DNA of 64,000 bases from contig NZ_WKFH01000003.1 of NCBI RefSeq assembly GCF_014884385.1, positions 1,502,001 to 1,566,000 of the forward strand. The letters are read 5' to 3'. Positions 23,143 through 29,129 of this stretch are shown piece by piece (within the stretch, counting starts at the first letter, position 1; each line of letters starts with the position of its first letter). The notes under the pieces are model-generated. The model worked only from the letters and a program-made list of their open reading frames with translations, did no database searches and was not told where the DNA came from. Source of the DNA: Phycobacter azelaicus. GTDB lineage: Bacteria; Pseudomonadota; Alphaproteobacteria; Rhodobacterales; Rhodobacteraceae. A program made the position numbers and the translations under genes.

Positions 23143-23904
23143 TCACAGGTTGGCGCGGCGATGCCGGGCAAAGGTCAGGTCGCGCAGCACCACCTGGTTC
23201 ATCTCGGGCGCTTCAAAGATCAGATCAAGCCAGGCGCTCTTGACGCGCTTTTCGTTGATTTTCGTATAGGCCAGATCGAACTCCACGCCCATGCGGCGTT
23301 CACCGTGGGGCAGCTCTCGCACGATCTGTTCGGTGTTCGGCCCGTGGCTGATGTTGAGCCTGGCAAAGATCTCGAGCGGTCTTTCGGTCTCAACGATGGT
23401 GTCAAAGCGGATCAGGTGCTGACGGGTCAGTCCTTCCAATGCGCCTTGAGGCAGGGCGATAACCAGAGACAGGAACGAGCCGTCGAAGTTGAAAACATCC
23501 AGGCGCAAGCCATGGGGGGCAAGGTCTTCTTCGCGCGTATTGCGCAACTGGCGCAGGGTCAGCTCGGAATAGGCACAATCATGGAACACCTGCACCTCAC
23601 TGCCGACCTTGGCCTTGGATGGCACCGAGGACAGGCCGGGAACCGGCAGGGGACCGCGCCATGCCTCTGGGCGCCAGGACCAGTCGCTGCCATGAGGCGT
23701 CGGAAATGAGCTGGACCCGATATGCGGCAGAGCGAGCCGCCCTTCGGCCACATGCAGCAGCCGGTCAAGGCGCGATTTGAGCTGCCGTGCCCGGTTTTGT
23801 TGGCGGCGCAACTCGTTGAGGGGGGCGGTTTCCACCTTATTGGCGATGCGGCCCCAATGGCGCAGGGTGCGGCGATGCAGCAGCTTTTCCATAATCCTGC
23901 TCAT
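23143..23904 (-). CDS. DUF6478 family protein
   Basis: A 253-residue protein with the features of DUF6478, found mainly in Rhodobacteraceae: HRRTLRHWGRIANKVETAPL at the N-terminus, a basic helical part (RRQQNRARQLKSRLDRLLH), then VFHDCAYSELTLRQLRNTREEDLAPHGL and GPNTEQIVRELPHGE. There is no signal peptide or membrane segment. The function is unknown. It is followed immediately by a small gene on the same strand, and preceded by another unknown gene about 100 bases upstream. Confidence 0.8.
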   Translation of the reverse strand: MSRIMEKLLHRRTLRHWGRIANKVETAPLNELRRQQNRARQLKSRLDRLLHVAEGRLALPHIGSSSFPTPHGSDWSWRPEAWRGPLPVPGLSSVPSKAKVGSEVQVFHDCAYSELTLRQLRNTREEDLAPHGLRLDVFNFDGSFLSLVIALPQGALEGLTRQHLIRFDTIVETERPLEIFARLNISHGPNTEQIVRELPHGERRMGVEFDLAYTKINEKRVKSAWLDLIFEAPEMNQVVLRDLTFARHRRANL

Positions 23905-24010: not shown

Positions 24011-24901
24011 TCAGTCAAATAAACCTGCAATTCGCTCCGTGAGAGAGAGATTTGTGCCGCCGCCGGATTTTAGGGGCGCTTTTGCCTGCTGCTCGCGGTC
24101 ACCGCGCGCAACAGGCCGCAAGGCGCCCGAGGGGATGCGGCGCGGCAGGTGAGTAGTGACAGGGGGTGAAACAGTCGTAGCCACCACTGGCTGCAGAGCA
24201 GAGGCGGCGCGGGTGCGCTGGGCCATCTGATCGAGCAGGTCTGCGCCGCGTGCATCAAGCAGCGGGCTTTGCTCCGGGGCGTAGAGCGCCAGCAGGATCA
24301 CGTAACCGTCCTGCACAAAGGCGCCGCGCCAGTGCTCGGAACTGGCCCCTCGCGCGCCGTGATCCGGCATATCCAGTTTGACCAGCGGCAGCGTCCCTCC
24401 GTTGCGTTCTTCCAGAACATGCGCTCCCGGCACGCTTGCCGCCAGCTCTGATAGCGAAGGGGAGGCTCGGCCATCGGCGGCCTTGCCGAGAGTGGCGGTT
24501 ATGACGGCGCTTTTGCCAAAGCTGGCAAAGACCCCCCTGACGCCCAGCCTGTCGCAGCGCGGCAGCAGGGCAAATCCGTCGGCCGCATCCCGCCGGAGCA
24601 TCTTTTTATCAAAACAATAACCTGCGGGCGCTGCCAGTACGATATCAGCGCCATCCATGGCCACTGCGGTCAGCCGGTCAGTGCCCGCGCTTGGTGCGGC
24701 GAAAGGAAGACCGCCGCTCGGCACCTGATCGCAAGCGGACACAACGGCGAAGACAGAGAATGCCGCAAACCCATTTGCACGGCGGCCAAGGAACCGCAGC
24801 GCGTGCGTGACACGATCTTTTATGCTCGCTCTTTTGCCCAGCTTTGCTGCTCCCCCGGCAGGCGCTTCTCTCAGTGCGTCCAACAGGGATAGATGCGGCA
24901 A
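24011..24901 (-). CDS. Unknown protein with lipoprotein-like segment
   Basis: A 296-residue protein that I do not recognise. Residues about 38-57 form RRANGFAAFSVFAVVSACDQ, a convincing lipoprotein signal with VSAC lipobox, but it is preceded by some 35 residues from the first available ATG. No ATG, GTG or TTG was found closer to the hydrophobic part, so the n-region is either very long or the start is non-standard. The mature part includes YCFDKKMLRR and RGVFASFGKSAVITATLG, and ends in a basic, proline-containing tail. It is divergent from the large ABC-like gene. Confidence 0.65.
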   Translation of the reverse strand: MPHLSLLDALREAPAGGAAKLGKRASIKDRVTHALRFLGRRANGFAAFSVFAVVSACDQVPSGGLPFAAPSAGTDRLTAVAMDGADIVLAAPAGYCFDKKMLRRDAADGFALLPRCDRLGVRGVFASFGKSAVITATLGKAADGRASPSLSELAASVPGAHVLEERNGGTLPLVKLDMPDHGARGASSEHWRGAFVQDGYVILLALYAPEQSPLLDARGADLLDQMAQRTRAASALQPVVATTVSPPVTTHLPRRIPSGALRPVARGDREQQAKAPLKSGGGTNLSLTERIAGLFD

Positions 24902-25073: not shown

Positions 25074-28000
25074 ATGAGATCGATAAAATCCGGTTCGCCC
25101 TCCAAGGGGGCGCAGGCTTTGCCGGTTTCACTCTTCGCCTTTATCTGGGCACATTCGCGCCGTCAGCAATTCCTGCTGCTTGCGCTTACTGTTCTGACCT
25201 TCCCGTTTCTTTATGCCAGTCTAGAGCTGCCAAAACGGATCATCAACGATGCCATCGGCGCCGAGGCGCCGGTGATCGATGTCTGGGGCGGGCATCAGGT
25301 CGGTCAGGTCGATTATCTATTGCTTTTGTGTCTGGCGTTTCTAGGGGCGGTTCTCTTGGGCGGCATGATGAAGATGCGGCTCAACACCATGAAAGGTATC
25401 GTGGCCGAACGCCTGCTGCGGCGCCTTCGCTATACGCTGATCAGTCGCATGATCCGCTTTCCGCGGCCCTATTTCCGCACCACCAGCCAGGGAGAGCTGG
25501 TGTCGATGATCACATCAGAGAGCGAACCCATGGGCGGCCTGATGGGCGATGCGGTGGCGCAGCCGGTGTTCCAGCTGGGGCAGATGCTGACCATCGTGAC
25601 CTTCCTGTTCATGCAAAGCGTCTGGTTCGGTCTGGTGTCGGTGGCGCTCATTCCGCTGCAGGCCTGGCTCATTCCGATGCTGCAGCGCCAGATCAACTTG
25701 CTGAACAAGGACCGCATTCAGGAGGTGCGGATGCTGGCTGCCGAGATCGGTGAGACCGCTGCCGGGATAGAGGATCTGCGCGCCAATGGCGGCTGGCGGT
25801 ATCGCCTGGCGCAGGTCTCGGACCGGCTGGGGCGCCTGTTCGAGATTCGCCGCCGGATCTACACCAAGAAGTACTTCATGAAGTTCCTCAACAACATGAT
25901 CGGCCATATGACACCTTTCGTGTTCTACTCGGCGGGGGGCGTTCTGGCGATCCGGGGGGACATCACCGTCGGGGCGCTGGTCGCGGCGCTGGCGGCCTAC
26001 AAGGATCTGTCGGCCCCGTGGAAAGAGCTGTTGACCTACTACAACCAGGTGCAGGACATGTCCCTGCGCTGGAAGATCATGGTGGACCGCTTTGCCCCGC
26101 GCGGCATGATCGATGCGGCGCTGATCGAGGGAGAGCCAGATGACATCCCGCACCTGCGCGGGGATATCGAAATGCGGGGTGTCTCGGTTCGGGACGGTGA
26201 TGGCAATATCGTGCTCGAAGATATCTCCTTGACCATTCCGGCGGGCAGCAGGGTTGCGATCAAAAGTTCCAGCGACAGCGCGCGGGCGGCCTTTGGCCAG
26301 TTGCTGACCCGCGAGATCATGCCCGCGCGCGGAACGATCGAGGTGGCCGGGCATCGGTTTGACCAGTTGCACCAGGGAGTGATCGCCGCCCGCATCGGAT
26401 ATGCCTATTCGCACCCCTACCTCTTTTCCGGCTCCCTTGGCGACAACGTCCTGATGCCGCTGCGCAGCCGCCCCGGCAACGTCAGCCGCGACAATGCGAC
26501 CTTGCGCAAACAGGCCGAGGCTAAGCGGGCCGGCAACAGCGGCGATCTTTTGGAGGCCGACTGGGTCAATCCCGAATTGGCGGGTCTCGGCTCCGAAGGG
26601 GACCTTCGTGACTGGTGGTTTCAGCTGATCGAGGCGATGGGTATCGATGAGCAGCTGTTTCAGCGCACCCTCCATGCTCGGTTCGAAAGCGGCGCCCATC
26701 CGGCGCTGGTGCAGCACATCATCCGCCTGCGTCCCATCATTCGCGAGCGTTTGCAGGACGCGGGCCTTGCGGACGCGGTACATCACTTTGATCCGGAACG
26801 CTTCAACCCGGCGGTGCCCCTTGCCGGGAACATCCTTTTTGCCGTGCCGACCCGCGAGGTGCCGGTGGAAGAACTTATCGCTCCCGGCGGGCTGCTGCTG
26901 CGCTTGATCCGCGAACAGGGTCTCAGCGCCGAAACCATGGGTATCGGCCTTGGGGTGGTGGATACGCTTATCAAGACCTTCGGGCGCGAGGACACGGACC
27001 ATCCCCTGTTTCTGCGTCTGGGCATCGAGGAGGATCTGTATCGGCGCCTGTGCAGCGCGGCTGAACAGTTCACGTCGCAGGGTAGCGGCGGCATGTCAGA
27101 AGAGGAGCAGGCGCTCCTGATGACGGTGCCGTTCCTGTTGAGCGAAGAGCAGATCGGATCAAGCCTGCCCGATGACTTCAAGGCACGCATTCTGAAAATT
27201 CGCAAAAGTCACGCCGCACGTTTGATCGCTGAGACCGAAGGGCTGTTTCAACCGCTGAAAGAGCAGGCCTATTTCGCGCGCCTGTCGGTTCTTGAAAACG
27301 CGCTTTTTGGGAGAATATCACTCCGCGCCGGGGCGCGGGCGGCACAGGTTGAGGCTGTTGTGGCCGAGGTGCTGAAATCCCACGGCCTGCAAAAACGCCT
27401 GGCGCTGATCCTTTATGATCTGCCAACTGGTCTTGGCGGCTCGATGCTGGAGCCGGTGTTCCAGGAACGCGCCGCCTTTACCCGTGCCGCCATCAAGCGG
27501 CCCGACATCCTGATTCTGGACAAGGCTCTTGCCAGCCACAGCGCCGAGAACCGCCTGCGCACGCGGGATCGCCTGCGCGGTCTGATGCCGCAGACCACCA
27601 TGATCTTCATGGAGGATCATATCCAGCATCCTGAGCGATATGACCTCTATTTCGAGATCCGCGATGGGAGGATCGATGGCGTCAAGCGGCGCAGCGAAGG
27701 GGTTCCGGAGGGGGCTGGAACCAGCGATTTCGCGGCCAAGTTCGACATCATTGCGGGAGCCGATCTTTTTGCGCAGCTCGATACCCGCAACCAGCGGCTT
27801 TTGGCGTTTTCTGCGGGCTGGCACGAGGTGCCCGCAGGCGAGCGGGTGTTTGCTGCCGGGGAAAGTGGCGATGCGGTCTACCTCTGCCTGTCGGGCCGGG
27901 CCGAGCTCAGATGGCCAAACGCACCAGAGGGGGCCGCGCCGGTTTCCGTGATTGAGCCGGGACGGCTGATCGGCGATCTGGCGGTGATCACGAAAGACAC

Positions 28001-28232
28001 CCGCAAATTGGATCTTTTTGCAGCCGAGGACTGCAGGTTTCTGCGCATCGGCGCCACGGAATACAAGGCGGTGATCGAAAGCGATATCAACGCGGCCCTG
28101 CGCCTGCTAGAGACCACTGCGGGCCATTTGTCCAATGCTGGTGACAGGATGCTGTCGATGGCGCAGCAAAGCGCACAAGGCGGAGTGCAGGACGCGGCGG
28201 GGAACGTGGGGCCGGAACCGAACAAGGACTAA
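25074..28232 (+). CDS. Degenerate ABC exporter-like protein with C-terminal cyclic-nucleotide-binding domain
   Basis: A 1,052-residue fusion. Residues 1-350 resemble an ABC exporter membrane domain (several hydrophobic spans; MIRFPRPYFRTTSQGELVSM is a typical coupling region). A nucleotide-binding domain starts near 370, but Walker A is lost: around residues 395-404 it reads AIKSSSDSAR instead of GxxGxGKST. About 270 residues of unrelated sequence follow before a poor signature (LGGSMLEPV) and Walker B ILILDKA (Asp816, Lys817 where the catalytic Glu should be). Residues about 885-1015 form a cNMP-binding fold (ERVFAAGESGDAVYLCLSGRAEL; GRLIGDLAVI). It is followed after six bases by a CPBP protease gene. 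Transport activity is doubtful. Confidence 0.85.
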   Translation: MRSIKSGSPSKGAQALPVSLFAFIWAHSRRQQFLLLALTVLTFPFLYASLELPKRIINDAIGAEAPVIDVWGGHQVGQVDYLLLLCLAFLGAVLLGGMMKMRLNTMKGIVAERLLRRLRYTLISRMIRFPRPYFRTTSQGELVSMITSESEPMGGLMGDAVAQPVFQLGQMLTIVTFLFMQSVWFGLVSVALIPLQAWLIPMLQRQINLLNKDRIQEVRMLAAEIGETAAGIEDLRANGGWRYRLAQVSDRLGRLFEIRRRIYTKKYFMKFLNNMIGHMTPFVFYSAGGVLAIRGDITVGALVAALAAYKDLSAPWKELLTYYNQVQDMSLRWKIMVDRFAPRGMIDAALIEGEPDDIPHLRGDIEMRGVSVRDGDGNIVLEDISLTIPAGSRVAIKSSSDSARAAFGQLLTREIMPARGTIEVAGHRFDQLHQGVIAARIGYAYSHPYLFSGSLGDNVLMPLRSRPGNVSRDNATLRKQAEAKRAGNSGDLLEADWVNPELAGLGSEGDLRDWWFQLIEAMGIDEQLFQRTLHARFESGAHPALVQHIIRLRPIIRERLQDAGLADAVHHFDPERFNPAVPLAGNILFAVPTREVPVEELIAPGGLLLRLIREQGLSAETMGIGLGVVDTLIKTFGREDTDHPLFLRLGIEEDLYRRLCSAAEQFTSQGSGGMSEEEQALLMTVPFLLSEEQIGSSLPDDFKARILKIRKSHAARLIAETEGLFQPLKEQAYFARLSVLENALFGRISLRAGARAAQVEAVVAEVLKSHGLQKRLALILYDLPTGLGGSMLEPVFQERAAFTRAAIKRPDILILDKALASHSAENRLRTRDRLRGLMPQTTMIFMEDHIQHPERYDLYFEIRDGRIDGVKRRSEGVPEGAGTSDFAAKFDIIAGADLFAQLDTRNQRLLAFSAGWHEVPAGERVFAAGESGDAVYLCLSGRAELRWPNAPEGAAPVSVIEPGRLIGDLAVITKDTRKLDLFAAEDCRFLRIGATEYKAVIESDINAALRLLETTAGHLSNAGDRMLSMAQQSAQGGVQDAAGNVGPEPNKD

Positions 28233-28238
28233 GACCTG

Positions 28239-29129
28239 ATGCTGGAGAGGCAGAACTACACCGCCCACGAAGCGCTTGTGCGTGCTGCGCGGGCAAAACC
28301 GCAGCTCTGGCGGCTCGGGATCGGTCTCGTCGTTGTTTACTTGATCGCCTTTGCGCTCTCTTCGGTTGTTCTGCCGATCCTGGCGGCGCTTTTTCCCGGC
28401 ACCTGGCTGAGCGGAATGGCCGATGGCAGCACGCCCGGGGCGATGCTGGTTTTGCTGGGTGGTTTTGGCTTCATCACGCTGGGCGTTGCGCTGAGCGCGC
28501 GGCTTTTGCAGGATCGCGCCTTCTTTTCGGTCATTGGGCAGCCGCGCCCGCTGGTGCGCCAGTTCCTTCGTGTGAGCCTCTATCTGCTGGGTCTCGGCAT
28601 CGTGCTGTCGCTGCTTCCTCCCTATGAAATGGGAGCGCCGATGCAGCCGAACCTGCCGTTTGGAACCTGGTTGTCCTTGCTGCCGTTCTCTTTGCTGGTG
28701 GTGCTGATCCAGACCAGCGCTGAGGAGATTCTCTTTCGTGGCTATATCCAGCAGAGCCTTGCAGCGCGCTTCAAAAGCCCTCTGATCTGGCTTGTGGCGC
28801 CCTCTGCCGTATTTGCGCTTGGGCATTTTCTGCCAAACGAGGCAGGGGATAACGCTGTTCTCATTGCGCTTTGGGCCGGGGTATTTGGCTGTCTGATGGC
28901 CGATCTTACTGCCCGTGCGGGTACGCTTGGTCCGGCCATTGCGGTGCATTTCTTCAACAATGTCACTGCGCTGCTGCTTTTCGCGTCACCCAGCAGCCTT
29001 CATGGGCTTGCTCTCTATCTACAGCCGTTTGACATGTCCGATACCGAGGCGCTGCGACCCTGGCTTGCGGTGGACTTTGCCATGATGCTGGTCACATGGC
29101 TTGCTGCGCGCCTTGCGATACGGCGCTGA
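28239..29129 (+). CDS. CPBP family intramembrane metalloprotease (CAAX-protease-like)
   Basis: A 296-residue polytopic membrane protein of the CPBP/Rce1 family. The three active-site motifs are visible: SAEEILFRGYIQ (Glu-Glu and Arg), FALGHFLP (His) and HFFNNVTALL (His and Asn). About seven or eight hydrophobic segments surround them. It begins six bases after the degenerate ABC/cNMP gene, so the two are co-transcribed and may work on the same process. The substrate is unknown; family members process prenylated proteins, bacteriocin-related peptides or anti-sigma factors. Confidence 0.9.
   Translation: MLERQNYTAHEALVRAARAKPQLWRLGIGLVVVYLIAFALSSVVLPILAALFPGTWLSGMADGSTPGAMLVLLGGFGFITLGVALSARLLQDRAFFSVIGQPRPLVRQFLRVSLYLLGLGIVLSLLPPYEMGAPMQPNLPFGTWLSLLPFSLLVVLIQTSAEEILFRGYIQQSLAARFKSPLIWLVAPSAVFALGHFLPNEAGDNAVLIALWAGVFGCLMADLTARAGTLGPAIAVHFFNNVTALLLFASPSSLHGLALYLQPFDMSDTEALRPWLAVDFAMMLVTWLAARLAIRR

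Follow-up and report, generated by a model that had tools for sequence, protein, structure and literature searches.

An ABC exporter-like protein of Phycobacter azelaicus lacking the ATPase residues and carrying a C-terminal cyclic-nucleotide-binding domain

The sequence analysed (the window) was a 64,000-nucleotide stretch of Phycobacter azelaicus DNA (assembly GCF_014884385.1, contig NZ_WKFH01000003.1, positions 1,502,001 to 1,566,000, forward strand). A plus-strand open reading frame (ORF) at 25074-28232, of 1052 codons with no internal stops, encodes a membrane protein related to ATP-binding cassette (ABC) exporters, with a degenerate nucleotide-binding domain (NBD) and a C-terminal cyclic-nucleotide-binding domain (CNBD). 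By descent and predicted fold this protein is an ABC exporter, yet it failed each ABC ATPase test made. The features of the locus, with the evidence used for each, are listed below.

25074-28232, plus strand: pseudo-ABC exporter with C-terminal CNBD, likely start TTG 25116 (ORF call, Pfam, alignment)
25116-26108, plus strand: transmembrane domain, residues ~15-345, both intracellular coupling segments retained (ABC_membrane, model helices, alignment with NBD-less relatives)
26151-26462, plus strand: N-terminal part of the pseudo-NBD, residues ~360-463, with degenerate Walker A and Q-loop (Pfam, alignment, model)
26256-26291, plus strand: Walker A equivalent, residues 395-406, Arg404 at the Lys position (homologue counts)
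26463-27257, plus strand: insert, residues ~464-728 (alignment; block mean pLDDT 87-98)
26700-26981, plus strand: putative extra repeat unit within the insert, residues ~543-636 (bounds transferred from family B profiles; hhalign)
27168-27419, plus strand: putative repeat unit up to the lost signature, residues ~699-782, spanning the insert end and the NBD proper (hhalign)
27258-27698, plus strand: C-terminal part of the pseudo-NBD, residues ~729-875, with lost signature, Asp816-Lys817 and lost H-loop (alignment, model, homologue counts)
27741-28178, plus strand: CNBD, residues ~890-1035, with phosphate-cassette Arg977 (PF00027, homologue counts, tree)
28239-29129, plus strand: CPBP (Rce1-like) intramembrane protease, conserved next gene (PF02517, E 1.3e-16; EEILFR in the window)

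Pfam matches were obtained for ABC_membrane (residues 81-306, E 1.3e-19) and cNMP_binding (PF00027, residues 917-1003, E 8.7e-12; 45.3 bits, above the curated cut-off of 27.5). ABC_tran matched residues 381-478 at 24.7 bits, below its cut-off of 25. The predicted structure had the type IV (ABCB-like) exporter fold across the whole chain. An initial annotation, made from the letters alone, had described an ordinary exporter membrane half and a cyclic-nucleotide-binding fold at the C-terminus, and both were recovered. Translation probably starts at TTG 25116 (codon 15), giving 1038 residues, because three relatives (L004, L010 and L011) begin at that position in the alignment. The nearest named relatives among the matches listed were from Phaeobacter, Pseudophaeobacter and Roseobacter sp. 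MED193, which points to a roseobacter host. One relative (L012, genome G020) was 59% identical to the window protein in the membrane domain and only ~35% identical in the remainder, with a long extra linker.

Conservation of the ATPase site was counted in the best 120 of 3288 protein matches at E<=0.001 (P0001 is the window's own protein). All 120 were 1000-1100 residues long and none was truncated. The window protein reads AIKSSSDSAR at 395-404 where Walker A is expected and ends Walker B in Asp816-Lys817; the Walker A glycines, the signature and the H-loop are lost. The Walker A Lys, the catalytic Glu, the H-loop His, and the Ser and Gln of the signature were each found in 0/120. Thus the features taken to define a functional ABC ATPase (Walker A GxxGxGK[ST], Glu after Walker B, LSGGQ and H-loop His) were absent from these homologues. 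As a control, ordinary exporters recovered by the same genome search were inspected; Walker A and DE[AP]T were intact in 15/15. Other residues have become nearly invariant at the lost sites: Glu at 403 (119/120), Arg404 (120/120), Ala406 (120/120), Glu798 (120/120) and Arg799 (120/120). On these alignments the ATPase site of the clade is dead family-wide, and its loss is old and shared. The initial annotation had given both degenerate motifs residue for residue and had called the signature poor. It had also left room for equal-length homologues with intact Walker motifs or for a scatter of decayed versions; neither was seen among the 120, all of which shared the loss at full length.

Some features of a nucleotide site persist. 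The Walker B Asp was kept in 114/120 and a Ser or Thr at 405 in 52/120, Arg404 is invariant, and the NBD fold was intact in the model. The pseudo-NBD might on these grounds bind a nucleotide, ATP or other, but not hydrolyse it, and that binding, rather than the CNBD, would be the main control. With the Walker A glycines and Lys, the signature and the H-loop gone, we regard this as unlikely.

Selection was estimated with our own Nei-Gojobori script on two pairs only. Against a 93% identical relative, the ratio of nonsynonymous to synonymous substitution rates (dN/dS) was 0.063 overall, and by region 0.053 (membrane domain), 0.058 and 0.037 (pseudo-NBD), 0.043 (insert) and 0.086 (CNBD). Against an 82% relative it was 0.114 overall, with dS partly saturated (>1 in parts). 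Purifying selection acts on every region of the protein. Taken alone, the motif loss could also mean that the gene is decaying into a pseudogene or that the sequence contains a local error. This explanation was rejected and has a negligible probability: the same loss was found in all 120 listed homologues at full length, new invariant residues occupy the lost sites, and dN/dS was 0.063. The gene is maintained rather than decayed, as had been proposed at the outset.

The insert of ~265 residues (about 464-728) was predicted with block mean pLDDT of 87-98. Profiles of a sister family (B, described below) revealed that it contains the ABC Q-loop/helical segment once more, in diverged form. The unit at ~543-636 aligned with that at ~699-782 with an hhalign score of 88.1 (best of 60 shuffles 19.3), and the latter aligned with the Q-loop segment at 34.8 (best of 60 shuffles 21.2); structural support for the repeat was weak. 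By profile comparison the insert is not foreign, its family B counterpart containing a divergent repeat of this segment. An insert of about 270 residues had been noted before and is present; its supposed dissimilarity to any ABC subdomain was not supported.

In a midpoint-rooted tree the window protein fell in clade A (28 tips, support 1.0). A paralogous clade, A' (26 tips, support 1.0), is 49% identical to A and is represented in the window's own genome (L031). The node uniting A and A' had support of 0.70. Together with three outliers they sat on one long branch (length 0.64, support 1.0), apart from the wide family B. Where full-length A was present, A' was also found in 24/25 genomes; this co-occurrence was scored by identity band, and only the fetched sequences had their clade confirmed in the tree. 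G020, G110 and G146, whose matches were split, chimeric or partial, were excluded from the count. Four genomes (G137, G184, G135 and G127) had A' without full-length A, and G082 had two A copies and a third relative at 38%.

This co-occurrence bears on whether A could pair with an ATP-hydrolysing half, contributing the degenerate site to a heterodimeric exporter that still transports actively. Heterodimers in which one site is degenerate are a familiar kind of exporter, and A' co-occurs with A. However, A' is as dead as A (Walker Lys, catalytic Glu and H-loop His in 0/26), and known pairs keep one complete consensus site, which A and A' could not form. Judged from A' as the partner, we consider such a transporter quite improbable.

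In family B the motifs were half eroded. All sites could be aligned in 225 of 226 sequences (best matches to one member, an uneven sample); of these 225, the Walker Lys was kept in 148, Ser or Thr after it in 22, the Walker B Asp in 9, the catalytic Glu in 177, the His in 130 and LS..Q in 191. Lys, Ser/Thr, Asp and Glu occurred jointly in 2/225 (L148 and L173). At E<=1e-60 a B query matched 97/289 genomes of the class and 28/398 of the phylum; a few A-type genomes are contained in each count, and at least one short match in that for the phylum. Family B was found on rhizobial megaplasmids and in some metagenome-assembled genomes labelled beta- or gammaproteobacterial. Its loci carry glycosyltransferases, frequently accompanied by an oligopeptide-type ABC importer and a histidine phosphatase. 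On plasmid pR132502 of R. leguminosarum WSM1325 (L255, 646-15285), a cyclase gene stands at the end of a gene row that also encodes the B protein, a CNBD protein, three glycosyltransferases and an oligopeptide-type ABC importer. A similar row was seen on pSymB of S. meliloti 2011, where a cyclase gene was not found within 12 kb.

B proteins mostly have their CNBD as a separate gene. A small CNBD ORF lay directly downstream on the same strand in 57/75 loci; four were fused, nine had the CNBD elsewhere in the locus (some overlapping the end of the target) and five had none. These counts were made by profile after excluding 5/80 loci with too little downstream sequence, and supersede a neighbour clustering of longest ORFs, antisense included, which contained the target in 67/80 loci and a CNBD partner in 33. 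In a CNBD tree (L126, L129, L132, L135 and L165 labelled partner by hand), the partner, fused, A and A' domains formed one clade of 115 tips (support 0.94), outside which stood 22/22 background CNBDs. The subnode uniting A, A' and the fused L173 had support of only 0.44. Because the window's CNBD groups with the partner ORFs and apart from the background, it is most simply read as a former separate partner that was later fused, which would make the partnership old.

Relatives consisting of the membrane domain only (roughly 350-440 residues) also exist, one of them in the window's own genome (L032). Their existence suggests that the membrane domain has a use even where no NBD is attached. Five were aligned, and four were shortened at both intracellular coupling segments. 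Clade A keeps both segments, and A probably still moves with its pseudo-NBD. In R. pomeroyi (L299, 5758-6996) and R. litoralis (L300, 5773-7011) the NBD-less genes are annotated inside copper loci; L032 (4779-6083, contig C1) and L039 (4941-6179) lie in loci judged by eye to be copper-resistance-like.

We give about an even chance to the reading that the window protein is a pseudo-ABC membrane protein controlled by a small ligand bound to its sensor domain, and not by ATP hydrolysis. The initial annotation had suggested a ligand-gated membrane sensor, channel or scaffold derived from a dead ABC protein; of this, the analysis supports a maintained protein without ATPase residues that carries a domain of ligand-binding type, and the three roles are candidates. 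This reading rests on the predicted fold, the absence of catalytic residues across the clade, purifying selection, the partnership with and fusion to a CNBD, and the NBD-less relatives. The ABCB-type membrane gate would be retained, with the NBD kept as a docked, non-hydrolysing lever. Binding of an anionic, cyclic-nucleotide-like ligand to the CNBD would move the pseudo-NBD, and that movement, passed on through the retained coupling segments, would switch the membrane domain. The switch would open or close a passive path or alter the docking of a partner. The likeliest cargo or partner would be a glycolipid or envelope component, because of the glycan loci of family B. The CPBP protease is a candidate effector, and A' may form the other half of the dimer.

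A fuller version of this reading is possible and is held tentatively. Here an exporter lineage gave up ATP and became a membrane gate of two dead chains, A and A', gated by a cyclic nucleotide or an alarmone through the fused CNBD; repeated copies of the helical subdomain would act as a new lever. The stages of this change would still coexist: a parent family with its Mg2+ ligands mostly lost and a separate CNBD protein, and an offshoot without the nucleotide domain.

Several observations weigh against a ligand-set switch of this kind. The Walker B Asp (114/120) is retained and the Lys position is occupied by Arg, so the pseudo-NBD could still bind some nucleotide or phosphate. The glycan context belongs to B and not to A. 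The NBD-less L014 is shortened at the second coupling segment only; the first is enlarged by an insertion. In the phosphate cassette, Gly (119/120) and Arg977 (120/120) are conserved, but Asp replaces Glu in 118/120 (Glu in 2/120), and the Ser/Thr-Ala pair, kept in 61/62 and 62/62 of the B partners, is mostly lost in clade A. The canonical CRP cassette, Gly-Glu ... Arg-(Ser/Thr)-Ala, was thus not found, two canonical cyclic AMP (cAMP) contacts being missing in clade A; for this reason the ligand may be other than cAMP. Class III cyclase genes were present in a minority of loci (B 9/80, A' 6/23, A 1/20); these counts are suggestive only, as the loci are related, of unequal length and without a matched background. 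The window's genome had six class III cyclase matches (PF00211) and five PF00027 matches, two of the latter being A and A'. The window protein may be a missing effector in a genome where cyclase matches outnumber CNBD matches.

ABC proteins are defined by ATP, and to our knowledge the known degenerate members keep at least one ATP-binding site. The ABC exporter folds of SUR and CFTR serve as regulator or channel, and both still bind ATP, whereas A and A' both lack the ATP sites. The type IV, ABCB/MsbA-like exporters TmrAB, TM287/288, PCAT1 and MsbA share with the window protein the transmembrane fold, the coupling segments and the NBD fold, as predicted. Unlike them, the window family lacks the Walker A Lys, the catalytic Glu, the signature and the H-loop, and has the ~265-residue insert and the C-terminal CNBD. 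The CNBD resembles CRP-type domains in fold and in the cassette Gly and Arg, and differs at the Glu and the Ser/Thr-Ala pair; no DNA-binding domain was found in the Pfam scan of the window protein. According to PMC10986499, HetC of Nostoc PCC 7120 is also an ABC exporter chain with a cNMP-type domain, which bound guanosine tetraphosphate (ppGpp), not cAMP, in vitro. As described there, that domain is N-terminal, a C39 peptidase domain is present and the ATPase site is essential for function. The CNBD of the window protein is instead C-terminal (917-1003), the ATPase site is dead, and no peptidase family was found among Pfam matches up to E 1. No prior description of the window protein's family was found in the open-access literature searched, subscription journals and supplements being outside its scope. 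A family that is maintained although both of its paralogues have lost the catalytic residues, that carries a fused second-messenger-type domain and that has relatives without an NBD would reveal what an exporter scaffold is good for when ATP is not used. Many database records name these proteins ATP-binding transporters, which is probably misleading.

Six bases separate the stop codon of the window gene (28230-28232) from the CPBP ORF, which begins at 28239, as had been noted initially. It was the next gene to A in 19/20 fetched loci and in the window (20/21), on the same strand, and judged by ORF bounds the two usually overlap or lie no more than 16 bases apart; the lone exception was the second A copy in G082. 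The EExxxR motif was found in 19/19 neighbouring CPBP homologues. The window CPBP thus has the domain and motif of CPBP/Rce1-like proteases, and it scored far under every NCBIfam equivalog cut-off. The earlier proposal that the two genes form a unit was borne out as a pairing, as far as gene order goes. This order, together with the evidence from NBD-less relatives that the membrane domain is useful without an ATPase, would fit a scaffold role in the membrane, in which the protein holds the protease or regulates it and passes no substrate. However, a CPBP neighbour was not seen at A' and B loci in the neighbour clustering, and the second A copy in G082 lacks one. The conserved order may also stem from a housekeeping block, as accD and folC continue it after CPBP in most A loci. 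A scaffold role of this kind seems improbable.

At 18/19 loci, A' was preceded by a divergent gene of one cluster (L031, 8024-8584, and homologues), one member of which was DUF3307. Upstream of the window gene and divergent from it, two minus-strand ORFs were found, a DUF6478 protein at 23143-23904 and an ORF without a Pfam match at 24011-24901. Related ORFs recur upstream of many A loci.
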